Below the pieces are notes generated by a model. It saw only the letters and a list, made by a program, of their open reading frames with translations, was not told where the DNA came from and searched no databases. Shown piece after piece: positions 6,695 through 26,081 of a stretch of DNA of 26,081 nt (positions are counted from its first letter, which is position 1; the number at the start of each line of letters is the position of its first letter). The DNA is from a virus: positions 1-26,081 of the IMG/VR virus record IMGVR_UViG_3300017917_002452; one strand, written 5' to 3'. A program made the translations under genes and the position numbers.

Positions 6695-7855
6695 ATGGCT
6701 CTAACAATAACACAATATCCAGCAACTGCTTCATTAGCACAATCACCGATAGCATTTACAGTATCTAGCACAACGCCTGTTACTGCAAGTCAATTTCAAT
6801 ATGTGGGTGATTTATATTACTGGGATGGTACTGAAGCAGCTAGTGGTAGTGTAAAATATACATTGGTTAAATTCCCTAATACTAGCTTAGTTGGTATTTT
6901 TGATGTTGGTAGAATAATAAACTCTACATTAACTGATTTAGCACAAGCGAATACCTCAAATGTAAAATACTTCAAAGTTGATTTTTATTCACAATACTAT
7001 GATACTAATGGTAATTATCAAACAGGCTCACATGCAGTTACTGGAGTTTACAAAGCATTAGATGGTTATGGGTTATTTCAGGAGCCAATAGGACAGGCAA
7101 TAAACAGCAAAACTCCTCATTGGCCTATTATGACTAGTGGACCTGCAACTCAATCATTTTTTGAGAATAATAGAGGGCAAGGCGCAGTATATGTAGGTAA
7201 TGTAGGAACAACAGTCCCAACAAAGATAATTTATTCAGGCTCAAATGCAAATGGAAGCGTTAATGTTAGTGGTAATACTACAACAAGCGGACAGATAGCT
7301 CAATTTCCCCTTTTTCCTGGTCAACCTGGCTTTCCTTTTAGCTCGGCAGGGTTAGAGTATTATACAGTACAAGCTTACTCAGGAGCAACCGCTTTAGGGA
7401 CGCCTATTCGTTATGAAATAGCATGTCAACAAAAGTATCCTAATGTAAGAATTAAATGGAAAAATAGATTTGGGCAATTTGACTGGTTTAACTTTAACAT
7501 GGTTAGTAGAACAAGCTTTTCAGTTGATAGAAAGAATTTCCAACCGCAAATTGGTAGCTGGGATGCTAGTAGCTTATCATATAATAACTATGACTCTCAA
7601 AATCAAACTTATATATCCAATGCAAAGCAAGGATTGTCTGTAAATACTAATTTTATTAATCAAGACTATAACGATATAATTAAACAATTGCTATCGTCTG
7701 ACGAAGCGTATTGGGTATATGATGAAGCAAATAGCTTATTAAGACCTATAACAATAGATACAAACTCAATAGTATTTAAGACTGGAGTTGTAGATAAAAC
7801 AATTCAATACGCATTTGATTTTGTATATGGACAAGAATATAAATTGCTAATATAA
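6695..7855 (+). CDS. Tail protein, possibly distal-tail/baseplate
   Basis: A 386-residue beta-rich protein. The N-terminal half is rich in Ser/Thr/Gly and short strands (residues 1-130). A variable Gly/Asn segment follows (residues about 160-215). The C-terminal part (about residues 245-386) contains KYPNVRIKWKNRFGQFDWF and then SFSVDRKNFQPQ, a pattern I recall from conserved tail proteins of Bacteroidota phages lying just before the large hub-like protein. It ends next to the following ATG (TAATG), implying coupling. No enzyme motif. A distal-tail role is inferred only from order; it could also be a baseplate wedge or receptor-binding subunit. Confidence 0.5.
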   Translation: MALTITQYPATASLAQSPIAFTVSSTTPVTASQFQYVGDLYYWDGTEAASGSVKYTLVKFPNTSLVGIFDVGRIINSTLTDLAQANTSNVKYFKVDFYSQYYDTNGNYQTGSHAVTGVYKALDGYGLFQEPIGQAINSKTPHWPIMTSGPATQSFFENNRGQGAVYVGNVGTTVPTKIIYSGSNANGSVNVSGNTTTSGQIAQFPLFPGQPGFPFSSAGLEYYTVQAYSGATALGTPIRYEIACQQKYPNVRIKWKNRFGQFDWFNFNMVSRTSFSVDRKNFQPQIGSWDASSLSYNNYDSQNQTYISNAKQGLSVNTNFINQDYNDIIKQLLSSDEAYWVYDEANSLLRPITIDTNSIVFKTGVVDKTIQYAFDFVYGQEYKLLI

Positions 7856-9987
7856 TGGGAGTAACGAATACAAATGTAATTGCATATAAATTAGTTGCTA
7901 GTGGTAGTGTTATATTAGACCTATTTAATGATGAGGATATATTAATCTCAAATAACATTACAGGTCTTTTTGATATTGGTGTACTTCCAGCTGAATTTTC
8001 TAGAACAATTTTACTGCCAGGTACACAAAAGAACAACGCTTTCTTTGAGCATGTATATGATATATCGGTTGACAATCCTTATTTGTTTGCAACCAATGTA
8101 AAAGTGCCGGCTTATTTAGATTTTGACGGAATTTATATAGCAAGTGGATATTTGCAGCTTAATAAAGTTAATTTTTACGAAAGTGATGGTATTGAGTCTT
8201 ACGAAGTATCATTATTTGGTAGCGTAAGTAACTTTAGTAGGGATATAAATAGATTATTCCTTACTGATTTGACCTCTTTAAGACAATTTAATCATACTGC
8301 CTCATATAATGCAATTACCTCTAGTTGGAATGGTGAATTATTTAATGGCGCAATAGTATATCCAATGGCTGAGTATGGACAGGCAATGACTTTTATACCT
8401 AGCGATACAACATTTGGAATTAATACAACTTCAGGTTCATTAAATGTGCAAGACTGGAAGCCTTCTATACGATTAAAAGAGGTATGGGATGCAGTTTTTG
8501 ACACATTAGGTTATACATATACAAGCGAATTTTGGGATGAACCGTTTTTGAATAATGTATATATGATTTGTAATAATAATCTAAAATACATACAGTTAGA
8601 AGGCGATTACTATGGTTCAGCATCTATTGATTTAGAAAACTATGGCACATTTAGAATAACTTCGCCACCCTCAAGTAGTGCATATACTCCTAGAACACCA
8701 ATGACTGCCGGTAGTAAATTGGCATTACCTTGGAATAGTATTGAGGGTAATCGCTCAGGCTTATTAAATAGTAGTTTAGAATATAACTTGCCAATAAGTA
8801 GCTCGTTGCTTGGTGAAATGAAATTAGTGCTTGAGGTATCACAATCCTCAACACCTGGTAATGGTGTTCCTGCATTTGAATTAGTTATATCAGGCTCAAG
8901 TGGAAATGCAACTGTGCCTTTAGATGCAGTTAATACTTTCTTTAATAATGTTAAGAGAGCGGATATTACGCAAGGTGTGCCAACTGCTACTAGAATTTAT
9001 ACAGTAGCACAACAATTCAATAGTGGATACTTAAACCCTGGTGTATATAAGTTTTATTTAAGATATACAAACAATGGTGGAACTAACTTTGGTATATTTT
9101 TAGATGCAAACAGTAAGCCAGAAAGTTATTTACAATTAAAGAAAGTAAAGAATGCTGGTGAGGGATTACTATTAGATATTCCAAGCAACATGCCTTTTGG
9201 AACAACTGGTATTAAGTTAGTTGATTTTATTAAGGGTGTGCAAAAGAAATTTAATTTAGTGCTATACCCTGATAATACAAAGCCTAATGCATTTATAGTT
9301 GAGACATTTAATAATTGGTATAATAATGGTAGAGTAAAAGACTTTAACAAATTTATTAATCTTAACGATAGAGTTGAATGTATTCCTGCAAATGATTTAG
9401 CAGTTAATGAGCTAGATTTTGGAGATACGCTAGATACAGACTATGTGTCACAACAATTTAGTAAAGGGGCAAATAGAGAATATGGTAAGAGTTATTATAT
9501 TGATACAGCAAACTATTTCTCACAAGGTAAGTTTGAGGTAAAAACAACATTTGCATCGTCACCATTATTATATGTAACAGGTACTGGGCAATCCGGTTCA
9601 GCTGCAGTTACTAATTATGAGGTAAGCGTTGCTGACGGATTTGATAGTTTAGTGCCGGTTACTTGTTTAGGAACTAGCTATGATGATACATTCTATGCAA
9701 CTACTATTACTTTATATGATGACCAGGGTAATGTAACAACCAACTATGGAGCAGATATAATTGTTTCAGTTGATTATACTATTACACCTTGTGTCGGTTC
9801 ACCATTCACTCAAACAGTTGATATAATTGTTGGATATGGAGCTACTGGTGCAACTTATGTATATCCACAAACAGCTTATGTAGATTGTGGTAGCTCTCCT
9901 TGTGTTACAGAAACCAAAGTTATTGATTGCATATCAGCAGTTACTAACGCAACAATTAAAACCAGTTCACCAATAATAGCTTGCTAA
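7855..9987 (+). CDS. Large tail hub/baseplate-like protein
   Basis: A 710-residue protein. Residues 1-130 form a beta-rich domain (DLFNDEDILISNNITGLFDI... FSRTILLPGTQKNNAFFEH) typical of a conserved Bacteroidota phage tail protein. Residues about 200-240 contain PSIRLKEVWDAVFDTLGYTY, and about 445-480 contain VDFIKGVQKKFNLVLYPD. These two helix-strand units recall the domains of gp27-like tail hubs. The last 120 residues hold several cysteines and short strands (SPCVTETKVIDC... PIIAC), like the Cys-bearing domains of the next gene. Its first ATG overlaps the previous stop. Hub assignment is tentative; a virion tail location is more secure. Confidence 0.55.
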   Translation: MGVTNTNVIAYKLVASGSVILDLFNDEDILISNNITGLFDIGVLPAEFSRTILLPGTQKNNAFFEHVYDISVDNPYLFATNVKVPAYLDFDGIYIASGYLQLNKVNFYESDGIESYEVSLFGSVSNFSRDINRLFLTDLTSLRQFNHTASYNAITSSWNGELFNGAIVYPMAEYGQAMTFIPSDTTFGINTTSGSLNVQDWKPSIRLKEVWDAVFDTLGYTYTSEFWDEPFLNNVYMICNNNLKYIQLEGDYYGSASIDLENYGTFRITSPPSSSAYTPRTPMTAGSKLALPWNSIEGNRSGLLNSSLEYNLPISSSLLGEMKLVLEVSQSSTPGNGVPAFELVISGSSGNATVPLDAVNTFFNNVKRADITQGVPTATRIYTVAQQFNSGYLNPGVYKFYLRYTNNGGTNFGIFLDANSKPESYLQLKKVKNAGEGLLLDIPSNMPFGTTGIKLVDFIKGVQKKFNLVLYPDNTKPNAFIVETFNNWYNNGRVKDFNKFINLNDRVECIPANDLAVNELDFGDTLDTDYVSQQFSKGANREYGKSYYIDTANYFSQGKFEVKTTFASSPLLYVTGTGQSGSAAVTNYEVSVADGFDSLVPVTCLGTSYDDTFYATTITLYDDQGNVTTNYGADIIVSVDYTITPCVGSPFTQTVDIIVGYGATGATYVYPQTAYVDCGSSPCVTETKVIDCISAVTNATIKTSSPIIAC

Positions 9988-9988
9988 T

Positions 9989-12409
9989 ATGTCAAACCAA
10001 ATATATATACCGTCTTTTATTAGTGACCAAAACTTTAACCCAAATAGAGTCTTACCTAGATTATATTTTTACAATGGATTAAAACAAAGTGAAACTTATT
10101 TTATACAAAGCGGGTCTGCGAATTTACCACAAAACGCTTTCCCTTACTTTAATCATTACAGCGGAGAGCCAACGCAAGGCTCCCTTTCTTTATTATTTAA
10201 TAACGAAACAAGCCCATACGGCACAACTCCTATTGACTCTTTATACACAAGGTATTGGGAGACATATATAGATTTATTATATAATCCTAAAACGAGATTA
10301 TTTAACGCCTCCGCAATTATTCCTTTAGCTGACTATTTTGATATTAAGCTGAATGATATAGTGCAATGGAGAGGCAATTATTATCATTTAAGAGCTATTA
10401 ATGATTACAACTTAAAAACAGGTGAGTGTAAAATTCAGTTGTTAGGGCCTATTATTACCAATGCATTAGATAAGGTAGAATATACAACCACAACCACATT
10501 AACACCTACTACAAGTACAACTTCAACTACTACTGCTAGTCCAACAACTACCAGTACAACAACTGCTAGTCCAACAACTACAAGCACTACTACGGCAGCG
10601 CCTACAACTAGCACAACTACGGCTGTACCTACTACTACAAAATCACCTACTACAAGCACAACTACATTAACGCCTACTACTACTACAACACTTTGTCCTT
10701 GCCAAGCAGATATACAAATTACTGTTACAACTGCAGGAACAATAAGCTGGGTTGATTGCTTTGGTGTAACACAAACTGGCGGTTATACTGTTGGCAACTT
10801 TACTATACCTGGTTGTATCCAGCCATTTAGTATTGATTTTGGATTAGAAGCTGCAGGCTTTGTAACTGATTATGGCACATGTTGCACAGTAACAACCTCA
10901 ACTACTTTAAGTCCTACAACTAGCACCACAACTGCATCGCCAACAACAACTACTACAACGACACTTTGTCCTTGTCAGACAGGAGTTCAATTTACTGTAA
11001 CTACACCTGGTATTATTACTTATGTTGATTGCTTTGGAGTAACTCAAAGTGGTGGTTATTCAAATGGTAATTACACAATTTTTGAATGTATCCAACCATA
11101 TAGCATTGACTTTGGTTTAGAAGCTGCAGGCTTTGTAACTGATTATGGAACTTGTTGTACTGTAACTACAAGCACAACAACTACGGCAGCGCCAACTACA
11201 AGCACAACAACAGCGCCACCAACAACTTCAACTACTACTGCTAGACCTACTACAAGTACAACTACTATTAGACCGACAACTAGCACCACAACTGCAGCAC
11301 CTACTACAACGACAACTCTTTGTCCTTGTCAATCAGGAGTGCAGATTACTGTAACAACAGCAGGAACTATAACTTGGATTGATTGCTTTGGTGATACGCA
11401 AGTAGGTGGATATAGTGTTGGTAATTATACTATGCCTGGCTGTATTCAACCATTTAGTATTGACTTCGGTTTAGAAGCAGCTGGATTTGTAACTGATTAT
11501 GGAACTTGTTGCAGTGTTACGACTTCTACTACTTTAAGTCCTACTACTACAACTATATCTCCTACTACAAGTACAACCACAGCTGCACCAACTACAAGCA
11601 CTACAACAGCGCCGCCAACAACTAGTACTACAACAGCAGTGCCAACAACTAGTACTACAACAGCAGTGCCTACTACAACAGCTGCACCAACAACAACTAC
11701 AACACTTTGTCCTTGTCAATACGAAGTGCAGATTGAAGTAACGCTTCCTGGTATTGTAAGTTATACTGATTGTTTCGGTAATAGCTCAAGCGGATATTAT
11801 GGAGCAGGAACTTATACTATATACGAATGTATTCAACCAACAACTATTACATTTGAATACCCAACTGAAGGTCAGATAATTGATTTTGGAACTTGTTGCA
11901 CTGTAACTACTAGCACTACTTTAAGTCCTACTACAACAACAATAGCACCAACTACCTCAACTACTACGGCAGTTCCTACAACTACTGCAGCTCCAACTAC
12001 AAGCACTACAACAGCAGTGCCTACTACAACAGCTGCACCAACAACAAGTACAACTACGGCTCCGCCAACAACAAGTACAACAACAGCGCCTCCTACTACA
12101 AGCACTACAACAGCAGTGCCAACTACTACGGCAGCGCCTACAACTTCTACTACTACGGCAGTGCCAACTACTACTGTTGCACCAACGACTAGCACAACAA
12201 CAATTCAACCAAGCGATTGTTATGAATTTATAGCACCTGGTGAGTGTACTGTTGAATACTATGATTGTTATGGTAATCTTACACTTATTGAGATACCACC
12301 ACAGGATGCTGGATTATACTTTAATTTCTGTGCACAATCAATAGTTAGTAATAGTTGTAACGCATTTGCTACTGGAGTTTGTATAGATTGCGCTTGTCCT
12401 CCGAGTTAG
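9989..12409 (+). CDS. Mucin-like tail fibre: Thr/Pro stalks alternating with six-Cys domains
   Basis: An 806-residue protein. Residues 1-165 form an anchoring domain (RLYFYNGL... RYWETYIDLLYNPKTRLF... IIPLADYFDIKLND...GECKIQLLGP) resembling the C-terminal part of Bacteroidota phage hub proteins. Five Thr/Pro/Ser stalks follow (about 166-234, 300-325, 391-443, 509-572, 638-742), built from units like PTTSTTTAP. Between them lie four 65-residue domains (235-299, 326-390, 444-508, 573-637) starting LCPCQ and ending GTCC, with six cysteines at fixed places. A divergent Cys-rich domain closes the protein (744-806). The design suggests rigid extended spacers carrying disulfide-bonded knobs for host contact. 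The stalks are plausible O-glycosylation substrates, and four glycosyltransferase genes follow directly. Glycosylation itself is inferred. Confidence 0.72.
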   Translation: MSNQIYIPSFISDQNFNPNRVLPRLYFYNGLKQSETYFIQSGSANLPQNAFPYFNHYSGEPTQGSLSLLFNNETSPYGTTPIDSLYTRYWETYIDLLYNPKTRLFNASAIIPLADYFDIKLNDIVQWRGNYYHLRAINDYNLKTGECKIQLLGPIITNALDKVEYTTTTTLTPTTSTTSTTTASPTTTSTTTASPTTTSTTTAAPTTSTTTAVPTTTKSPTTSTTTLTPTTTTTLCPCQADIQITVTTAGTISWVDCFGVTQTGGYTVGNFTIPGCIQPFSIDFGLEAAGFVTDYGTCCTVTTSTTLSPTTSTTTASPTTTTTTTLCPCQTGVQFTVTTPGIITYVDCFGVTQSGGYSNGNYTIFECIQPYSIDFGLEAAGFVTDYGTCCTVTTSTTTTAAPTTSTTTAPPTTSTTTARPTTSTTTIRPTTSTTTAAPTTTTTLCPCQSGVQITVTTAGTITWIDCFGDTQVGGYSVGNYTMPGCIQPFSIDFGLEAAGFVTDYGTCCSVTTSTTLSPTTTTISPTTSTTTAAPTTSTTTAPPTTSTTTAVPTTSTTTAVPTTTAAPTTTTTLCPCQYEVQIEVTLPGIVSYTDCFGNSSSGYYGAGTYTIYECIQPTTITFEYPTEGQIIDFGTCCTVTTSTTLSPTTTTIAPTTSTTTAVPTTTAAPTTSTTTAVPTTTAAPTTSTTTAPPTTSTTTAPPTTSTTTAVPTTTAAPTTSTTTAVPTTTVAPTTSTTTIQPSDCYEFIAPGECTVEYYDCYGNLTLIEIPPQDAGLYFNFCAQSIVSNSCNAFATGVCIDCACPPS
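10691..11899 (+). repeat. Four copies of a 195-nt six-cysteine domain
   Basis: Copies encode residues 235-299, 326-390, 444-508 and 573-637 of the fibre, each exactly 65 residues. Copies 1-3 share long identical stretches (IDFGLEAAGFVTDYGTCC), while copy 4 has diverged in its second half. All keep cysteines at domain positions 2, 4, 23, 42, 64 and 65. This indicates internal duplication with later divergence of the fourth copy. Confidence 0.85.
11900..12214 (+). repeat. Longest Thr/Pro low-complexity stalk
   Basis: Encodes residues about 638-742 and consists almost only of Thr, Pro, Ala, Ser and Val in 6- and 9-residue units (PTTTAA, PTTSTTTAP). The DNA is a near-microsatellite of ACN codons. 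Unequal recombination could change stalk length in codon multiples. Confidence 0.8.
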
Positions 12410-12454: not shown

Positions 12455-13381
12455 ATGAGATTTATATGCGCACAACCAGCTACAACTTATTATAGTTGGC
12501 AAGTAGAGGTAATGATAAACAATTTTATGGAACTAGGTATAAATCCTAATCACATAGATATTGTTTGCTGGAAGCCTAATGGAGAAATACCTGATGATTG
12601 GTCTAAATTGGCTAATAGATATAACACAGTTCGCTTCTTTTTTTATGATGATACTAGAGAAACTAAACACTATATATCCTCTATCCGTCCTAATGTATTA
12701 AGACAGCATTGGGAAGCTAGACCGGAAATATGGAAAGATACTATATTCTATCATGATTGCGATATAGTATTTACAAAGTTGCCAGACTTTAAGCAATTTG
12801 AAAATGATGATAAGTGGTATGGTAGCGATTGTAGATGGTATATAGGACATGATTATATATTATCTAAAGGACAAGATGTTTTGGATGCTATGTGTGATAT
12901 AACTGGAATGAATGCTGACATTATTAAAGCTAATGAATTAAACAGTATAGGTGCACAATATATATTAAAAGGTGTAGATGCAAATTATTGGAGAGATGTT
13001 GAAGCAGATAGTGAAAGACTATTTAAGGATATTACGGAGCTTAACAACAAAAAGAAAAAATTAGACCCAACTCACCACGAATTACAAATATGGTGTGCTG
13101 ATATGTGGGCTGTATTATGGAATGGGTGGAAGCGTGGAAAGGAAACTGTTTGTCATAACGATTTAACATTTGCTTGGGCAACTTCAGCTGAAAAAGAATG
13201 GCATGAATTTTATATCTTTCATAATGCCGGCGTAACAAGCAATAAAGATGGCTATTTTTACAAAGCAGATTACATAAATAAATTACCATATAATGAGACT
13301 ATTCAAGTAAAAAAAGATAGTGCATCATATCATTACTGGGAATTGATACAAAAAACAGCCAAAATCTCATGCTTAATATAG
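12455..13381 (+). CDS. Putative GT-A glycosyltransferase
   Basis: A 308-residue soluble protein. The start MRFICAQPATTYYSWQVEVM is a beta strand and helix of a Rossmann-like nucleotide-sugar fold. IFYHDCDIVF (residues 97-106) gives a DxD (Asp101, Asp103) expected to bind the metal and the UDP/GDP-sugar. Later segments (HELQIWCADMWAVLWNGWKRG and FYIFHNAGV) look like acceptor-side elements. It is the first of four glycosyltransferase genes sharing short overlaps: its end overlaps the next by 13 bases. No signal peptide or membrane helix, so it should act in the cytoplasm. Sugar donor and acceptor are unknown. Confidence 0.6.
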   Translation: MRFICAQPATTYYSWQVEVMINNFMELGINPNHIDIVCWKPNGEIPDDWSKLANRYNTVRFFFYDDTRETKHYISSIRPNVLRQHWEARPEIWKDTIFYHDCDIVFTKLPDFKQFENDDKWYGSDCRWYIGHDYILSKGQDVLDAMCDITGMNADIIKANELNSIGAQYILKGVDANYWRDVEADSERLFKDITELNNKKKKLDPTHHELQIWCADMWAVLWNGWKRGKETVCHNDLTFAWATSAEKEWHEFYIFHNAGVTSNKDGYFYKADYINKLPYNETIQVKKDSASYHYWELIQKTAKISCLI

Positions 13382-14352
13382 ATACCATATACTTTTTTTG
13401 GGAGGGACACATTCACCCAACACGCTTAAAGATACTGCAAGATTGCTTGTATTCAACTAGAGTATTCAATCCTAATAGAAAAATATGCTTATTTAGTAAT
13501 ACTATAACAAAAGATATGTTAGATGCTAGATATGATATAATAATTTTTAGATGGACAAATGAAATGTTCAAAGGATTACCTATACCTTATGAGCATTTAG
13601 AAAAGCATTATTTGCATACTAGCCCTAGAGAATTAAGCGATTTAATGAGATTTATATTGCTTTACAAGTATGGTGGAACTTACATTGATACAGACGATTT
13701 AGCTATTAAACCAATATCTGACACAAAGAATATAGTTTGCCGTAGTTATGACCCGCATACCTCATTCTACAATAAGATTACAGACGAACAATGCATTGAC
13801 GGTAAGCATAGAGAAATAAGAGGATACGATAATATACCAATGTTTCCACGCAATGACTGTTGGCATAATTTTGAACCTAACTCAAACTTTTTATTGCAAC
13901 TATTATCTAATCCTAAAATAACAAGCGTAGATAAAGCAATATACATAGGTGATAATTTTAGTTGGCAATCGTTGACACATGAAACAATACAAGCTAATAT
14001 AGATAAAATAGGAGTTGAATTTAATTTTGCTTTAACGCTATTGTATTTGTATGAGGATTTTGTTGCCGGTTCGTCTTACTGGGATAGATGCATGTATGGT
14101 GGTGAGATGTGTGACTTATGGAAAGAAATGCCTAATGTAGATAGTATGGAGTGGGGTAGCTATAAATGTAACAGAGACACTGCTTTAAGCCTCTATAATA
14201 AAATAGTGGATAGATACCCTCACCTTTCGCATTTATGGTTACACAGCAAAGATATGAAACAGGAATGGTTATTGCCTGAATTGACCGATGAACTATATTC
14301 TCCGTCAACTTGGATATTAAACGAAGTAAGAAATAAAATACATGCATTCTAA
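13369..14352 (+). CDS. DXD-type glycosyltransferase (Gly_transf_sug / GT32-like)
   Basis: A 327-residue protein. SDLMRFILLYKYGGTYIDTDD (residues 90-110) is the signature of the DXD sugar-binding family: an R in the helix, YGG-Y-D, then Asp107-Thr-Asp109. The N-terminus IYFFWEGHIHP matches the usual first strand of the family (xxxIPKIIHFxW-like). Later WHNF and HETIQ fit the acceptor part. Members transfer hexoses in capsule, LPS or protein glycosylation. Its overlaps (13 bases before, 11 after) show it belongs to one translational unit with its neighbours. Cytoplasmic, no membrane helix. Confidence 0.8.
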   Translation: MLNIDTIYFFWEGHIHPTRLKILQDCLYSTRVFNPNRKICLFSNTITKDMLDARYDIIIFRWTNEMFKGLPIPYEHLEKHYLHTSPRELSDLMRFILLYKYGGTYIDTDDLAIKPISDTKNIVCRSYDPHTSFYNKITDEQCIDGKHREIRGYDNIPMFPRNDCWHNFEPNSNFLLQLLSNPKITSVDKAIYIGDNFSWQSLTHETIQANIDKIGVEFNFALTLLYLYEDFVAGSSYWDRCMYGGEMCDLWKEMPNVDSMEWGSYKCNRDTALSLYNKIVDRYPHLSHLWLHSKDMKQEWLLPELTDELYSPSTWILNEVRNKIHAF

Positions 14353-14968
14353 ATTTACAGTAATAATTCCTACGCTTTGGAGGTCAGCTCATATACACAC
14401 TATGCTTGACGCCTATGAGCAGTGCGAACTTGTTGGTGAGATAATACTAATTGACAACGATAATGCTGCTAGTGACAAATTAAATAAGCAATACACAAAG
14501 CTTAGAGTATTACCACAGCAAGAAAACATTTATGTAAACCCTGCTTGGAATTTAGGAGTTAGTTTTGCTAATTACAGTAAGATAGCTATTGCAAACGATG
14601 ACATATTATTTAGCAGTGATATATTTGAATGGGTTAAAGACCACATGGATACAGGCGTAATAGGAATGTGTTGTAGTGCTTATGACCCGATTGATAGGGA
14701 TTTACCTTATGAGTTAGAGAAAGTTGATAGGCGTCCACCGGGATGGGGTTGCCTGATGTTTATAGAGAAGCACAACTATACACCAATACCACTATGGCTT
14801 AAAATAGCGTGTGGTGATGATTACTTGATGCATAATGTAAGCGGAGGCGCATATATATTAAAGAATTTAAGAGTTGGTGGCACAATGTCAGCTACTTCTT
14901 TACTGGGAGATTATGTTAGAGTGGCAGATGAAGACATAGAAAAATATAAACAAATGAACAATGATTAG
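14342..14968 (+). CDS. Family 2-like glycosyltransferase (short)
   Basis: A 208-residue protein. FTVIIPTLWRS (5-15) is the first strand of GT2 enzymes. EIILIDNDNA (33-42) is the second strand with the nucleotide-binding Asp. NPAWNLGVSFA (66-76) is the classical GT2 'xxNxGxxxA' element. IANDDILF (83-90) supplies the metal-binding acidic pair. GDDYLM near residues 158-163 may hold the catalytic base. It is shorter than most GT2 enzymes and lacks a membrane tail. It overlaps the flanking genes by 11 and 8 bases. Confidence 0.75.
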   Translation: MHSKFTVIIPTLWRSAHIHTMLDAYEQCELVGEIILIDNDNAASDKLNKQYTKLRVLPQQENIYVNPAWNLGVSFANYSKIAIANDDILFSSDIFEWVKDHMDTGVIGMCCSAYDPIDRDLPYELEKVDRRPPGWGCLMFIEKHNYTPIPLWLKIACGDDYLMHNVSGGAYILKNLRVGGTMSATSLLGDYVRVADEDIEKYKQMNND

Positions 14969-15659
14969 CGTATTAACACTTACTTACCAAAGACATCACT
15001 TATTAGAGGAAGCAATACACTCTTTCTTATCGCAAGACTGGGATGGTGAAGCTGAAATGGTTATTATTAATGATAGCCCAATAGTCAAATATGAAATTGA
15101 CAATCCAAAAGTTAGAATTATTAACTGCGATAAACGCTTTAGTTCAATTAGTAGAAAGTTAGAGTTTGGTTTTAAGCAATGTAAAGGTGATTACATATAT
15201 AGATTAGATGATGATGATTTAATGGCACCTTGGGCTTTAACACTACATGCACAATATAGAGAGCTAAGACCAAATATGGATGTTTATAGATGCCAAAAGC
15301 ATTATTTCTTTTGCGAAAACAAGTATCAAGCATTGTCTGACAGCATTAATAATGGTAATACATATAAAAAAGAATATATAGAAAGAATACCATTTAACGA
15401 TAGTAGCATGGGTGAGGATAATTATATAACATTCTTTCATAACGCAACAATATATACAGCTGATTTAGGCAGATATACTATGATTTATCGCTGGGGAATG
15501 AATACTTTCCATGTATCAGGTATGGGTGGTGATAAAGGACCTGATTATGTAAACAATGCAGTAGATGCGGCTGTTAAGCATATTGAAGGTACTGTAAAAT
15601 TGCAACCTAAATTTAAGAGTGATTACTACGCTCTATTACCAGAGTATAAGAAAGATTAG
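14961..15659 (+). CDS. Family 2 glycosyltransferase
   Basis: A 232-residue protein with clear GT2 features: ISVLTLTYQRHHLLEEAIHS (2-21) as first strand and helix, MVIINDSP (33-40) as second strand with the nucleotide-binding Asp, and GDYIYRLDDDDLMAPWAL (76-93) with the DDDD metal site. MGEDNYITF (about 150-158) probably carries the catalytic Asp/Glu (the ED motif). It is the last of four overlapping glycosyltransferases. Cytoplasmic, no membrane segment. Substrates are unknown. Confidence 0.82.
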   Translation: MISVLTLTYQRHHLLEEAIHSFLSQDWDGEAEMVIINDSPIVKYEIDNPKVRIINCDKRFSSISRKLEFGFKQCKGDYIYRLDDDDLMAPWALTLHAQYRELRPNMDVYRCQKHYFFCENKYQALSDSINNGNTYKKEYIERIPFNDSSMGEDNYITFFHNATIYTADLGRYTMIYRWGMNTFHVSGMGGDKGPDYVNNAVDAAVKHIEGTVKLQPKFKSDYYALLPEYKKD

Positions 15660-15679: not shown

Positions 15680-15829
15680 ATGTTAAAGAATATATTAAAC
15701 ATGCTGCAAAGTGATAACCTGTATGGAGTATCACATAATATAGATATTGCAAAAGGTAAGTACAAGATACCACAAAGTATGTCTGAAGCTAAAAAGCAGA
15801 TAAAACTAATTTGGAAAAGTAAAAGATAA
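15680..15829 (+). CDS. Small basic protein upstream of the tape measure
   Basis: A 49-residue protein, MLKNILNML to KLIWKSKR, with a basic C-terminal helix. Its stop shares a base with the tape-measure ATG (TAATG), so translation is probably coupled. The leader contains AGTTAAATAG, as at two other genes. In many siphophages the genes before the tape measure encode tail assembly chaperones, but this product is far too short to be a normal one. I do not recognise it; it may be a remnant or a translational lead-in. Confidence 0.5.
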   Translation: MLKNILNMLQSDNLYGVSHNIDIAKGKYKIPQSMSEAKKQIKLIWKSKR

Positions 15830-17850
15830 TGGCAGAAAACAAAACTACATACGAAACAACCATTGATGTTAATGTTGATGGTGCCGATGAGATACAAGAT
15901 TTAGGTGATAAAGCCGAACAAGCGGACGGTAAGTTTACCCCATTGCGTAGACAAATTAGAGAAACTACTGTTGCCTTACAAAAATTGGCATCAGAGGGTA
16001 AAGCAGGTGGAAAAGAATTTACAGAATTAAGTAAAAAATTAGACCAATTAAAAGACGCACAAGCTAGAGTAGCATTCCAATCAGGTCAAATTGAGGATAA
16101 ATTAGCTGCATTACCTGGTCCAATTGGGCAAATAGGTAGAGGCTTCCAAATGGCTAAAGAAAGCGTTGAAACATTTGGTAAAACATTAGCTATATCATTA
16201 GGAGTAGTTACATTAATTATTGGTGCTATATTAGCATTCAAAGAGTCTTTAAGTAGAACAGAGGAGGGACAAAAGAAACTAAACAAAATTAGTGAAGCAT
16301 TTGAAAAAATAATGAATGCAGTATTTGCTGTATTAGAACCTATTGCTAATGCGGTGGCTGATTTTACATTATCTTTATTAACCAACGAAAAGGTAATGAA
16401 AGGATTATCGGTTACTATGGGTATATTATCAGGCATAGTTACTGGATTATTTGGCACAATTAAAGCATTAGGTGGATTTATTATTAATAACCTAGTCAAT
16501 TATTTTACAACGCTTATTAACATAGCATCAAATACAGGTAAAGTATTAAAGGGTGTATTCACATTTGATTTAGATTTAATTAAAGAGGGTGTTGCCGGCG
16601 TAGGTGATACTGTTAAAAAAGGATTTACTACTTTTGTTGATAATGTAAAGGAAACAGCTAAAGGTATTGGTACAGCAGTTAAAGATGGATATGATAGTGC
16701 AACTAAATCCGTAGATGAAGGTCTTAAACGAATGACCAAAAAGGAAAAAGAAGCTAAAGCTGCTAGAGATAAAGCGGCAAAAGAAGCTAGAGATAAAGCA
16801 GCTGAGGAAGCAAGAAAGCAAAGAGAAAAGGAATTAGCTGATTTTATTAAAGGACAAGAGGATTTATTAGCTGAACTTAAAAAGTATAAAAAGGCTGGTA
16901 GTGATGTATTAAAGAGTGAAAGAAAGAAAGAATTAGATGATGCAAGATTACAGTATGTAGAATTATTAAATCAAGCAGCTAAATTTGGTGCTGATACTGT
17001 TGGTATTGATGAAGCATATAGAGCTCAAAGAGATGCAATTAATAAAAAGTTTGATGATGCCGATGCCGAAAAGAAAGCTGAAAATGATAAAAAAGCATTA
17101 GATGACAGATTATTAGGTATAGAAACTGAATTATCTAATGTTGGTTTGGATTATGATAGAAGACGAGAATTAACTAAACAAAAAGAAGCTGAATTATTAA
17201 GCGATATAACTCTTACAGAAAATCAAAGAAAGGCAATCAAGTCAGCTACGGCTAAAGAATTGATGGAGATTGACCAGGCTGAGATAGATGCTAGAATAGA
17301 GTTACAATTAAAATACGCTGATTTAGTAAGTCAATTTGGTGGAGTATTACAACAATTTGCAGGTAAGAATAAAGCATTGGCAATAGCTGGTGTTGTTATT
17401 GAACAAGCTGCATCAATTGCAAAAATAATAATGAATACAAATGCTGCTAATTCGGCAGTTAAATTGAAATACGCATTAGTGCCAGGTGGACAAGCATTAG
17501 CAGCTACTGAAATTTTAATAAACAAAATTAGTGCTGGATTAAGTATAGCAGGTAGTGTGGCAGCAGGAGCTAAAGCAATACAACAAATTACAAGTGCAGG
17601 AACTGGTGGAGGCGCTGGAGGTTCGCAAGGAGCATCGGTAAGTGCTACTATTCCGTCACCAACTGTATCAGGCACAACAGTACCACAAATACAAACAGGT
17701 ACTAGTGTAAATCCTACTGCACAAATTGGAGAAACAGTAGCATCTGCAACAAGTATGGAAAGAAAACCAATAAAAACTTATGTAGTAGCTCAGGATGTAT
17801 CCTCTAAACAAGCATTTGATAGGAGAGTAAACTCAGCGGCAACATTGTAA
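15829..17850 (+). CDS. Tape measure protein
   Basis: A 673-residue protein that would set tail length and be ejected with DNA. The order is: N-terminal charged helices (residues 20-110), a hydrophobic helix (119-137, ISLGVVTLIIGAILAF), further hydrophobic helices (about 190-235), a long charged coiled coil (about 305-450) with Ala/Lys/Glu repeats, a second hydrophobic region (about 505-590), and a Gly/Ser/Thr-rich low-complexity tail ending SKQAFDRRVNSAATL. This alternation is diagnostic for tape measures. At the usual 0.15 nm per residue, a tail near 100 nm is expected, which fits a sipho- or myovirus and not a podovirus. Confidence 0.82.
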   Translation: MAENKTTYETTIDVNVDGADEIQDLGDKAEQADGKFTPLRRQIRETTVALQKLASEGKAGGKEFTELSKKLDQLKDAQARVAFQSGQIEDKLAALPGPIGQIGRGFQMAKESVETFGKTLAISLGVVTLIIGAILAFKESLSRTEEGQKKLNKISEAFEKIMNAVFAVLEPIANAVADFTLSLLTNEKVMKGLSVTMGILSGIVTGLFGTIKALGGFIINNLVNYFTTLINIASNTGKVLKGVFTFDLDLIKEGVAGVGDTVKKGFTTFVDNVKETAKGIGTAVKDGYDSATKSVDEGLKRMTKKEKEAKAARDKAAKEARDKAAEEARKQREKELADFIKGQEDLLAELKKYKKAGSDVLKSERKKELDDARLQYVELLNQAAKFGADTVGIDEAYRAQRDAINKKFDDADAEKKAENDKKALDDRLLGIETELSNVGLDYDRRRELTKQKEAELLSDITLTENQRKAIKSATAKELMEIDQAEIDARIELQLKYADLVSQFGGVLQQFAGKNKALAIAGVVIEQAASIAKIIMNTNAANSAVKLKYALVPGGQALAATEILINKISAGLSIAGSVAAGAKAIQQITSAGTGGGAGGSQGASVSATIPSPTVSGTTVPQIQTGTSVNPTAQIGETVASATSMERKPIKTYVVAQDVSSKQAFDRRVNSAATL

Positions 17851-20350: not shown

Positions 20351-20743
20351 ATGGAATTTAATAATATAATACTTAACAATTTAGATGAAAATACTTTTAT
20401 TTTATATGGTTACTTAAAAGATATGCACTGGAAGCAATTTGCAGACGCTTGTAAAGAATTTGATAAAGAAGCAGTAGTAATTACTCACAAGTCTACTGAT
20501 GTTGAACCTTATCAATATAAACCTTATCCAGCTCACTTTAGAGTTATATTATCTTATCCTAAACTATTGCATTGGGAAGTCAGTCAAAGCGGTTTAGACC
20601 AAGTATTAAAGAACAAAGCTAAAATATATAAGAAACAATATGGTGGAATTATCGTCAATGATTTGCTGCTATGTGGAGACAGAACCAGAGATGGATATAA
20701 AGCTCCAAGTATCAGCGGCTCATTTTGGAATACAGTTGCATAA
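20351..20743 (+). CDS. Hypothetical protein overlapping the next glycosyltransferase
   Basis: A 130-residue protein starting MEFNNIILNNLDENTFILYG. I chose this ATG over a GTG at 20291, whose extra residues come from a T-rich promoter tract. It has helix-strand alternation (KQFADACKEFDKEAVVITHK... VILSYPKLLHWEV...) and no motif I recognise. Its last 29 codons (from 20658) overlap the glycosyltransferase in another frame. That end may be non-functional sequence read past GGIIVNDLLL, or the two frames may be joined by a +1 shift. Real protein status is likely but its proper end is uncertain. Confidence 0.5.
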   Translation: MEFNNIILNNLDENTFILYGYLKDMHWKQFADACKEFDKEAVVITHKSTDVEPYQYKPYPAHFRVILSYPKLLHWEVSQSGLDQVLKNKAKIYKKQYGGIIVNDLLLCGDRTRDGYKAPSISGSFWNTVA

Positions 20744-21380
20744 TTTAGGTAAAGGTAAGCACTGGGATAACTACTTTACTAAAAATGAATGTTATATTGC
20801 TGAATTAAAGCAATTAAGACAAAAGTATGATTATGTACTTGGTGTAGATGCAAGAGATGTCTTATTCTTTGATACTTTACAGGCAATTATAGATGCATAT
20901 AATACATACTATTCAGGTAAATTAGTTTTTAATGCTGAAGACTTTACTGGAAAAGCTGCTAGTTATGATTTAGGAACTAGAACTACTAGAGTAAAGTATG
21001 AAAATCATAGATTAAATTTACCTTATACCTCAGCAAATAAATACAAGTATCTTAATTCAGGTTGCTTTATAGGGCCTATTGATTTAGTTATTACTGCAAT
21101 GGAAGCTGCATACGCTTACAAAGATAAATGGGGCAATTCAGTAGACAATGGACCTATGGAGGAAGTCTATTTATCCAGCGATTATATAGTGCTTGACGAA
21201 CAATGCAGAATTTTTCAAATAATGTCAGAGAATGAAAGCGGTGGTGTCAACTTTGATTTAGTATATAAGCAAGGAAAGCCATACAATAGATATACTAATA
21301 GCTATCCAAAGATATTACATGCAGCAGGCCATTCGCATTTTATACAAGCGTGGAGAATTTTAACTGGAAATTATTATTAG
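20658..21380 (+). CDS. PLOD/GT25-like glycosyltransferase
   Basis: A 240-residue GT-A protein. Features of the PLOD/GT25-like family appear in order: a first strand (MICCYVETEPE), SAAHFGIQLHNLGKGKHW (19-36), YDYVLGVDARDVLFFD (57-72) with Asp64 and Asp67 as the metal/sugar site, GKLVFNAED (87-95), YLNSGCFIGP (131-140) and IVLDEQCRIFQ (177-187). Relatives galactosylate or glucosylate proteins (collagen hydroxylysine in animals); viral and bacterial relatives act on proteins or glycans. Possible starts are 20640, 20658 and 20691; 20658 keeps the first strand. It overlaps the previous gene by 86 bases, which is unusually long. Substrate unknown. Confidence 0.75.
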   Translation: MICCYVETEPEMDIKLQVSAAHFGIQLHNLGKGKHWDNYFTKNECYIAELKQLRQKYDYVLGVDARDVLFFDTLQAIIDAYNTYYSGKLVFNAEDFTGKAASYDLGTRTTRVKYENHRLNLPYTSANKYKYLNSGCFIGPIDLVITAMEAAYAYKDKWGNSVDNGPMEEVYLSSDYIVLDEQCRIFQIMSENESGGVNFDLVYKQGKPYNRYTNSYPKILHAAGHSHFIQAWRILTGNYY

Positions 21381-24490: not shown

Positions 24491-24701
24491 AGTACAACAA
24501 TTATACAACAAAGGCCTCCGCCACAAATATGAGGGAGAGGAAGCTGTAGCGTATTTAGACAAGTTCATTTTCGCATTAGAACAATTGGCTGAGGAATTGC
24601 CTACATATAGACATGAACTTAAAATAGTTAGAAAAGAAATACTTAACACGCTGAAAGAGGATTTACCGATGCCTGATGCAGCACATGATAATTACCTATG
24701 A
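24471..24701 (+). CDS. Small helical hypothetical protein
   Basis: A 76-residue, mainly helical, acidic protein (KFIFALEQLAEELPTYRHELKIVRKEIL) with no recognised family. Its start overlaps the end of the sigma-like gene by 20 bases and its stop overlaps the next ATG (ATGA), so translation of the chain is coupled. Being next to a sigma factor it might be a regulator of it, but this is only a guess from position. Confidence 0.55.
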   Translation: MTPAFNRVQQLYNKGLRHKYEGEEAVAYLDKFIFALEQLAEELPTYRHELKIVRKEILNTLKEDLPMPDAAHDNYL

Positions 24702-26017
24702 TAGATATAACCGCATTTACAGTAGACCCATACGAAACCGAACAATACGATTACAAAGTATTAATCTATGGTAACTACACATATAGAAAGAATTTAGAAG
24801 CAGATAGCTTAGTAGAGGTATTGCGTAGAGTTATTCCTTTTATGTCAAAGAAACATAAGATACACTTTACATTACTTACGCCAGAATTTATTAAGTCACT
24901 AGCGTTTCCAAATGTTGAGCAAAGAATATATGAATTGCCAACCTATATTAATCAAATGCGAACACACTTTAATTCTATTGAGTTTATGCAACATATTGAT
25001 TGGCAGCGTAATGACTGGGATATAATCTATTCGCATTTACCTGAACACACCAATCAAATAGCTAATTCAATATATAACAATAGCAATATAGTTCCAAAGA
25101 TTATAGGATACTCACATTGGTTTGAAGTACCTGAAAACGCTCCTTATCTAAAAACTATGCTTGACACTAATCTAAATGGTATGTTACAAATGGACGAGTG
25201 TGGTGTTAATAGTAAATGGCTAAAGGATTTGGTTTTGACTTATGCGGAAAAGACATATAATAAAGATATAATAGCTAAATTAGATAAGATTATACAGCCA
25301 CATTATTTAGGTGTGGATAGAGTAGAAGCAAGAACAAAGTATAGAGATAAGACTGTAGTATTTAACCATAGAGATGCAGGATATACAGGTTGGGAATGGT
25401 TTGTGAAAGTAGTAGACGAGATATGGAAGACAAGAAAAGACTTTAAGGTATATACAACATTAGCACAAGTAGATAGAGAATGGAACACTAAAGTAGAATT
25501 AACAGGCAGAGATGAGTATATGCAGTTTCTATCACAGGTTAAATTTGGAGTAGCTACCTTTCAAACATATTCTGCTTGGAGCATATCAACTACGGACGGA
25601 TTAAGCGTTGGAGTTCCTTATCTGCTACCAAATAAACTATGCTATCCTGAAATGGTGACTGCAGATTATCCATACTTATACAATGATAAAGCTGACTTCA
25701 TACAAAAGTTTAATGAGATGTTAGATGCTGATACGCAATATGATACAACGCAGATAGCTAAAGATATGTTATGGGAGCAGAGAATAGATAAATGGTTTAA
25801 TGGTTGGGATAATGTATTTGATGGAGTTAAGATTAAAGATGGCGAAGGATTGCAAAAGATAGTAGCAATCATTAAAAGAAATAGATTTGCAACTAAGCAT
25901 GATATATTAAAAGAACTTAACTGGGGTGTTAGGATTAAATGGACACCTTATAGAAATGCTTTAAGAGATAATCCTAATATAAGATTTACAAAGAAAGGTT
26001 ACGAATGGGTGGATTGA
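24698..26017 (+). CDS. GT-B glycosyltransferase with a C-terminal winged-helix-like domain
   Basis: A 439-residue protein. It has two Rossmann-like halves: residues about 18-200 (YKVLIYGNYTYRKNLEADSL...IIGYSHWFEVP) and about 215-375 (KTVVFNHRDAGYTGWEWFVKV...KDFKVYTTLA). The sugar-nucleotide site is SISTTDGLSVGVPYLLPN (295-312), a GT4/GT1-like element, followed by PYLYNDKADF. Residues about 385-439 (LQKIVAIIKRN, TKHDILKELNWG, YRNALRDNP, IRFTKKGYEWV) look like a winged helix-turn-helix. This tail suggests DNA as a possible target, as with phage DNA glucosyltransferases, though protein or glycan targets are equally open. Its last 10 bases are the 5' end of a tRNA gene. Confidence 0.72.
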   Translation: MIDITAFTVDPYETEQYDYKVLIYGNYTYRKNLEADSLVEVLRRVIPFMSKKHKIHFTLLTPEFIKSLAFPNVEQRIYELPTYINQMRTHFNSIEFMQHIDWQRNDWDIIYSHLPEHTNQIANSIYNNSNIVPKIIGYSHWFEVPENAPYLKTMLDTNLNGMLQMDECGVNSKWLKDLVLTYAEKTYNKDIIAKLDKIIQPHYLGVDRVEARTKYRDKTVVFNHRDAGYTGWEWFVKVVDEIWKTRKDFKVYTTLAQVDREWNTKVELTGRDEYMQFLSQVKFGVATFQTYSAWSISTTDGLSVGVPYLLPNKLCYPEMVTADYPYLYNDKADFIQKFNEMLDADTQYDTTQIAKDMLWEQRIDKWFNGWDNVFDGVKIKDGEGLQKIVAIIKRNRFATKHDILKELNWGVRIKWTPYRNALRDNPNIRFTKKGYEWVD

Positions 26018-26078
26018 CCGAGCAGTTAGGTGCTGGTTTGCAAAACCAGTTAGACGGGTGCAACTCCTGTATCCACCT
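26008..26078 (+). tRNA. tRNA-Cys (anticodon GCA), CCA not encoded
   Basis: The acceptor stem GGTGGAT (26008-26014) pairs with ATCCACC (26071-26077) and is followed by discriminator T, the Cys identity base. The D arm has a short ACC/GGT stem. The anticodon stem CTGGT/ACCAG holds the loop TTGCAAA, giving anticodon GCA. The variable loop is TTAG. The T arm ACGGG/CCTGT holds loop TGCAACT, with G instead of the usual T at position 55. Its first 10 bases are the last codons and stop of the glycosyltransferase gene. The 3' end is followed only by TTA-like flank before the window ends, so no CCA is encoded. Confidence 0.85.
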
Positions 26079-26081
26079 CTA

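Follow-up and report, generated by a model that had tools for sequence, protein, structure and literature searches.

A fibre with threonine stalks and the glycosyltransferase genes behind it: a probable virion self-glycosylation module in a phage

What do four glycosyltransferase (GT) genes do directly behind a phage fibre gene that encodes long threonine-rich stalks? The question is raised by the window, the whole stretch of 26,081 nucleotides that we analyzed (IMG/VR virus record IMGVR_UViG_3300017917_002452). A preliminary description, made from the letters alone, had proposed that the genes form a cassette for building a stepwise glycan on the fibre itself. The features involved are the following.

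7855 to 9987, + strand: conserved tail gene, upstream of the fibre gene; left border of the variable stalk/GT interval
9989 to 12409, + strand: fibre gene, 806 aa; conserved N-terminal tail-anchoring part of ~165 aa, five Thr stalks, Cys-rich C-terminal end
10472 to 10708, + strand: Thr stalk 1, residues 162-240
10874 to 10984, + strand: Thr stalk 2, residues 296-332
11144 to 11338, + strand: Thr stalk 3, residues 386-450
11504 to 11719, + strand: Thr stalk 4, residues 506-577
11891 to 12217, + strand: Thr stalk 5, residues 635-743
12455 to 13381, + strand: GT1, phrog_4417 family, GT-A fold; proposed priming (first-sugar) enzyme for stalk Thr/Ser
13369 to 14352, + strand: GT2, DXD glycosyltransferase, PF04488; proposed extension enzyme
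14342 to 14968, + strand: GT3, family-2-type glycosyltransferase, PF00535; proposed extension enzyme
14961 to 15659, + strand: GT4, family-2-type glycosyltransferase, PF00535; proposed extension enzyme
15829 to 17850, + strand: tape-measure gene; right border of the variable stalk/GT interval, kept with or without the cassette

The five Thr/Pro/Ser stalks that had been picked out in the fibre are real. They lie within residues 162-743, are separated by Cys-rich repeats and total 362 residues, with 190 Thr, 37 Ser and 42 Pro; the whole 806-aa fibre contains 235 Thr. The four GT genes behind it are likewise arranged as described, as co-directional open reading frames on the + strand (12455-15659) that overlap by 13, 11 and 8 bases, with GT1 starting 45 bases past the end of the fibre gene. 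The cassette thus described consists of phage-encoded glycosyltransferases genetically linked to a structural protein. The promoter-like box reported ahead of the GT genes was not supported: sigma-70-type matches were at shuffle level (25 versus 20.8 +/- 5.3 in shuffled sequences), a promoter and terminator scan of the region gave chance-level results, and by eye TAnnTTTG is absent from the 45-base gap between the fibre gene and GT1.

The glycosyltransferase signatures read from the sequence were confirmed for all four genes, by two routes. GT2 matches PF04488 (1.2e-10), and GT3 and GT4 match PF00535 (5.8e-6 and 1.5e-13, respectively), all above the Pfam cut-offs. GT1 is a full-length match to phrog_4417 (E 1.5e-72, residues 1-301 of 308 against 1-291 of 293), a family also named 'prophage pi2 protein 34' and listed with function unknown. 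Structure prediction, which had been suggested as a check on these enzymes, was applied to GT1 and gave a confident AlphaFold2 model (pLDDT 96.6, pTM 0.92). The best structural matches of this model in the PDB are GT-A enzymes (UGGT, WbbM, LgtC, glycogenin, xyloside xylosyltransferase and COLGALT1; best E 1.8e-7), and several of these GT8/GT24-type enzymes act on proteins (glycogenin, UGGT, COLGALT1). In addition, D101 and D103 of the D101-x-D103 (DXD) motif are invariant in 47 GT1 sequences. From the model and this motif, we are confident in predicting that GT1 is a GT-A glycosyltransferase. Its likeness to glycogenin, LgtC, UGGT and xyloside xylosyltransferase is structural only, in the modeled fold and the DXD, whereas identity is only about 6-13% and TM about 0.4-0.5; with no match in Pfam, NCBIfam or the PDB sequences (the last searched with a GT1 profile), we do not count GT1 as a member of CAZy family GT8 or GT24.

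One check suggested for the proposal is whether stalks and GTs co-occur and sit adjacent in related phages, and in the phage family of the window they do. We compared the interval between the conserved tail gene and the tape-measure gene in relatives. These were retrieved with the capsid gene, the N-terminus of the fibre and the upstream tail gene as queries (all independent of GT1), and also with GT1. Of 41 loci that span the interval completely (a contig may contribute more than one), 26 have both a stalk and GT1, 15 have neither, and none is discordant. The 24 distinct contigs picked independently of GT1 divide in the same way, with ten having both, 14 having neither, and no discordant case of either kind (Fisher p 5e-7). 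Eleven of the 14 contigs without stalks encode a fibre product of 170-213 aa that is the N-terminal part alone; the remaining three encode fibres of 441-533 aa with other C-terminal parts, and the GTs are absent there too. In an IQ-TREE phylogeny built from the upstream tail protein (40 rows), the stalk/GT1 label changes nine times, at least six of them on well-supported branches, and the independent pairs on this tree are concordant in six of six cases (p 0.031, sign test on six pairs). Because the labels change jointly and no locus is discordant, stalk loss repeatedly accompanies GT1 loss, while the tape measure stays.

The association extends beyond this family. Most of the best 80 GT1 relatives in IMG/VR have a Thr/Ser-rich gene directly upstream. 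For GT1 representatives dereplicated at 90%, a Thr run lies within 1.2 kb upstream in 39 of 55 and downstream in five more; for other genes on the same contigs the upstream count is 14 of 382. These counts use Thr runs; an ORF-based stalk threshold misses short poly-Thr tails. In the converse direction, we collected 107 contigs chosen only by a DNA pattern for TTTTTAPTTTT. Twelve of their 13 GT1-family genes, which form about 10 groups below 60% identity, are immediately downstream of a stalk gene (p 6e-14, kinship ignored), and we note that kinship overlap among stalk contigs makes such very small p-values overstate the independent evidence. Many of the 107 contigs have no detected GT1, so a stalk does not as a rule imply GT1. 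Similarly, among long contigs found through GT4, together with three found through GT1, Thr runs occur in 18 of 19 with GT1 and in six of ten without it, which indicates association, not exclusivity: stalks need not accompany GT1. One group of contigs (L002-L019 and similar) has GT1 beside genes without stalks; those of at least 56 kb have several Thr runs elsewhere, and several shorter fragments have none. The arrangement that had been named as counting against the proposal, a GT cluster beside stalk-less fibres, was thus found nowhere in the window's family, but GT1 with a stalk-less direct neighbor does occur in this group.

A megablast comparison of named phages with the window gave no match. 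At the protein level (tblastn), GT1 homologues are present in 74 named-phage records, mostly from Lactobacillus, Enterococcus, Staphylococcus and Lactococcus phages. We examined 19 of them (25-39% identity to GT1, mostly Firmicutes phages). In 17 of these, six or more consecutive Thr/Ser residues are encoded within, overlapping or just after a structural gene, most often the one for the major tail or capsid protein. For instance, the major tail protein of the Enterococcus phage phiFL1A ends in TTTTTSTTTTTTSSTTTTTTTQASSK and GT1 is the next gene, orf13 of Lactococcus phage 1706 ends in TTTTTTTTTTHHD, and the capsid protein of CHPC836 ends in PTTTTTTQATTTTTSHA. Chryseobacterium phage MA9V-3 is also among the records with such a run; 521B and LP65 have Thr-rich segments that are interrupted. 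The major tail protein of R3.3, a phage with GT1, ends in TTTTTTSHA, whereas the members of this protein family in seven phages that lack GT1 (Bassarid, phiJL-1, Javan163, Javan311, GBSInt4, AS1 and Bacillus 049ML001) have no poly-Thr end.

Several details of these tails deserve mention. The poly-Thr tails of six loci from Lactococcus and Lacticaseibacillus phages close with similar tripeptides (HHD, RHD, SHA or SHV), perhaps a recognition end. The Thr segment of SA2, TPWB06, Planchet and VFW is read in a frame that overlaps or follows that of the structural gene. Five loci in all have poly-Thr segments in a frame that overlaps the major tail or capsid gene or sits just behind it, in bIL285 in frame past the stop of that gene. 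These positions suggest that programmed frameshifting or readthrough may add the tail to some copies of the protein. In phiFL2A the GT1 homologue match covers residues 1-248 only and no gene is annotated, so GT1 may be broken there; the poly-Thr tail remains.

Could the target of GT1 instead be ordinary sites on a structural protein encoded next to it (tape measure, tail tube or capsid), the Thr runs being only linkers that travel with it? The gene order would allow this, as GT1 stands behind a major tail or capsid gene in Firmicutes phages and precedes the tape-measure gene in the window. However, the tape measure is kept where GT1 and the stalks are lost, and homologous tail proteins differ by their poly-Thr end, with GT1 found only beside the poly-Thr-tailed versions among those examined. 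We consider this explanation unlikely.

GT1 is the constant gene across loci, and the genes behind it vary. The order GT1-GT2-GT3-GT4 is common to the window and six other contigs (GT2 52-55% identical). Elsewhere, GT2-GT4 are replaced by a class I methyltransferase and/or a family of 288 residues, or by family-2 GTs. The 288-residue family gave a model of medium quality (pLDDT 69) whose best PDB matches are all glycosyltransferases, and it is likely to be another GT-A enzyme. Such variation behind GT1 is as expected for glycan diversification, and the idea of a stepwise glycan agrees with the exchange of GT2-GT4 for other GTs or a methyltransferase. The cassette also travels. The end of the stalk gene and GT1-GT4 are about 90% identical in DNA between L184, a phage of the window's type, and L188, a 57-kb contig with a T4-like recombination gene (identified by eye). 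In the stretches compared, the two have no further DNA similarity, which indicates that the cassette is passed as a whole from one phage to another, unrelated one.

The extension enzymes themselves could be taken to favor a different target, the host cell envelope, with serotype conversion or superinfection exclusion as the outcome and a coincidental gene order. Weak matches link GT3 and GT4 to phage GT and GtrB-like O-antigen-conversion families, and GT4 is similar to polysaccharide GTs. However, the most hydrophobic 19-residue segment in GT1-GT4 (Kyte-Doolittle mean 1.08) falls short of what a membrane helix needs, and neither a flippase nor an undecaprenyl partner adjoins them; the membrane-anchored GtrA/GtrB/Gtr set of serotype conversion has no counterpart among GT1-GT4 or the adjoining genes. 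The cassette moreover sits inside the tail operon and is absent whenever the stalks are absent. Serotype conversion was set aside on these grounds, and we give the envelope explanation slightly less weight than that of a neighboring protein.

Cellular relatives point to the probable host and perhaps to the substrate. A scan of cellular genomes for GT1 relatives found 17 loci, all in Bacteroidota, and the closest cellular-genome contigs with GT1 are Bacteroidota MAGs; the host of the window phage is probably a bacteroidete. Some Bacteroidota loci that look like RiPP operons (Sphingobacterium, Pedobacter, Chitinophaga and Mucilaginibacter) encode a GT1-like region (32-38% identity). They differ from the phage cassette in being cellular and in fusing the GT1-like domain, at the N-terminus, to further sequence; of the two such fusions scanned, one has a second GT domain (PF02709) after it. 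Several of these RiPP-like loci contain genes for GG-leader peptides (TIGR04149-like, below the cut-off), a C39 exporter and LanC-like proteins. The precursor core is WTTTTTTSSVPVTYRG in one locus (L411) and WTTTTTTSSVP in one operon. A Thr-rich precursor core beside a GT1-like enzyme suggests that the GT1 family may act on Thr/Ser-rich peptides. As peptide natural-product operons with a GT1-like domain, the Bacteroidota loci L400-L413 are candidates for glycosylated RiPPs.

Bacteroidota possess a general protein O-glycosylation system. A bacteroidete host might therefore prime the stalks, which would be spacers, and the phage GTs would only extend the host glycan. Both this system and the cassette would produce O-glycans on Thr/Ser. 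However, the stalks lack the D-S/T-hydrophobic sequon, as had been observed from the sequence; the sole D-[ST]-[AILVMT] match in the fibre is DSL at residue 83, outside the stalks. The phage enzymes also differ in being soluble and cassette-encoded, the stalk-GT1 pair occurs in Firmicutes phages as well, and GT1 is constant while the other enzymes vary. Priming by the host is accordingly improbable in our estimation. Phage GTs that glycosylate DNA exist, but modification of DNA or bases was set aside as highly improbable here, given that the best structural matches of GT1 are protein- or glycan-directed GT8/GT24-type enzymes and GT2-GT4 match PF04488/PF00535, none of these matches being a T4-type DNA glucosyltransferase, that no base hypermodification gene adjoins the cassette, and that the stalk association would be left unexplained.

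Most likely, then, the enzymes behind the fibre attach sugars to its Thr stalks, and the proposed self-glycosylation cassette gains support both from the stalk/GT1 agreement in the phage family and from the association in unrelated phages. In the sequences compared, stalk and GT1 are adjacent, are gained and lost together and move together. We think it very probable that they form a virion self-glycosylation module in which the stalk Thr/Ser are the acceptor, GT1 primes and GT2-GT4 extend. In the cytoplasm, ahead of tail assembly or while it proceeds, GT1, as a soluble GT-A enzyme, would transfer the first sugar from a host nucleotide-sugar to Thr/Ser of the stalks, and GT2, GT3 and GT4 would extend or branch it into a short oligosaccharide. 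The stalks would become mucin-like rods, stiff and resistant to proteases, that keep the Cys-rich fibre domains at a distance from the tail, and the role could be stiffening, protection, or changed binding or recognition. The reaction, the first place of GT1, the way in which the glycan grows, its sugars and a mechanical or shielding role are our inferences from this arrangement.

A broader reading, which we hold to be probable with somewhat less assurance, is that of a portable glycosylation tag. Thr stalks or C-terminal poly-Thr tails would be grafted on capsid, tail-tube or fibre proteins, each with a cognate GT1 (phrog_4417) and swappable extension enzymes, in phages of Bacteroidota and Firmicutes, and the enzymes would be related to those of Bacteroidota peptide-natural-product operons. 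Glycosylation of phage virions is itself known. Phage GTs of actinobacteriophages (Che8 and relatives), some with a methyltransferase, are reported or proposed to glycosylate the phages' own structural proteins (PMC11256854, PMC13313380, citing Freeman et al. 2023); glycosylation is reported for major capsid proteins, and the GT genes of Maravista lie near the 3' genome end (PMC11256854). The likeness to the window lies in phage-encoded GTs with own structural proteins as reported or proposed targets, and the difference in a GT that adjoins a Thr-rich stalk or tail varying with it. No description of the poly-Thr/phrog_4417 pairing or of Thr stalks with GTs was found in the literature searched, which is weak evidence because most subscription papers lie outside it; to that extent the pairing appears to be new. 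That GT1 accompanies Thr-rich tails in many phages unrelated to one another suggests a route of virion self-glycosylation that is widespread and, in the literature searched, undescribed.

If this is true, a widespread phage protein family of so far unknown role (phrog_4417) would gain a function, and the acceptor would have been identified from sequence alone, as a poly-Thr tail beside its own GT. Named phages, phiFL1A and 1706 among them, would allow a direct test of virion glycosylation, and the finding would bear on the surface chemistry and stability of phages, on receptor binding and on recognition by the immune system. The pair may also supply a simple two-part tool for protein O-glycosylation.

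The window contains further genes of interest outside the cassette. Near its start (382-1074) is a very Gly-rich open reading frame of 230 aa. A fifth glycosyltransferase (20640-21380) has a PLOD GT domain (PF25342, 3.2e-13), and its sole PDB sequence match is a chain named R699 (9dyt_A, 2.5e-8), which we take to be a Mimivirus protein. Finally, a 439-aa protein (24698-26017) looks by eye like a GT-B glycosyltransferase, with no Pfam, NCBIfam or PDB sequence match, and the 3' end of its gene is overlapped by a tRNA-Cys gene (26008-26079).
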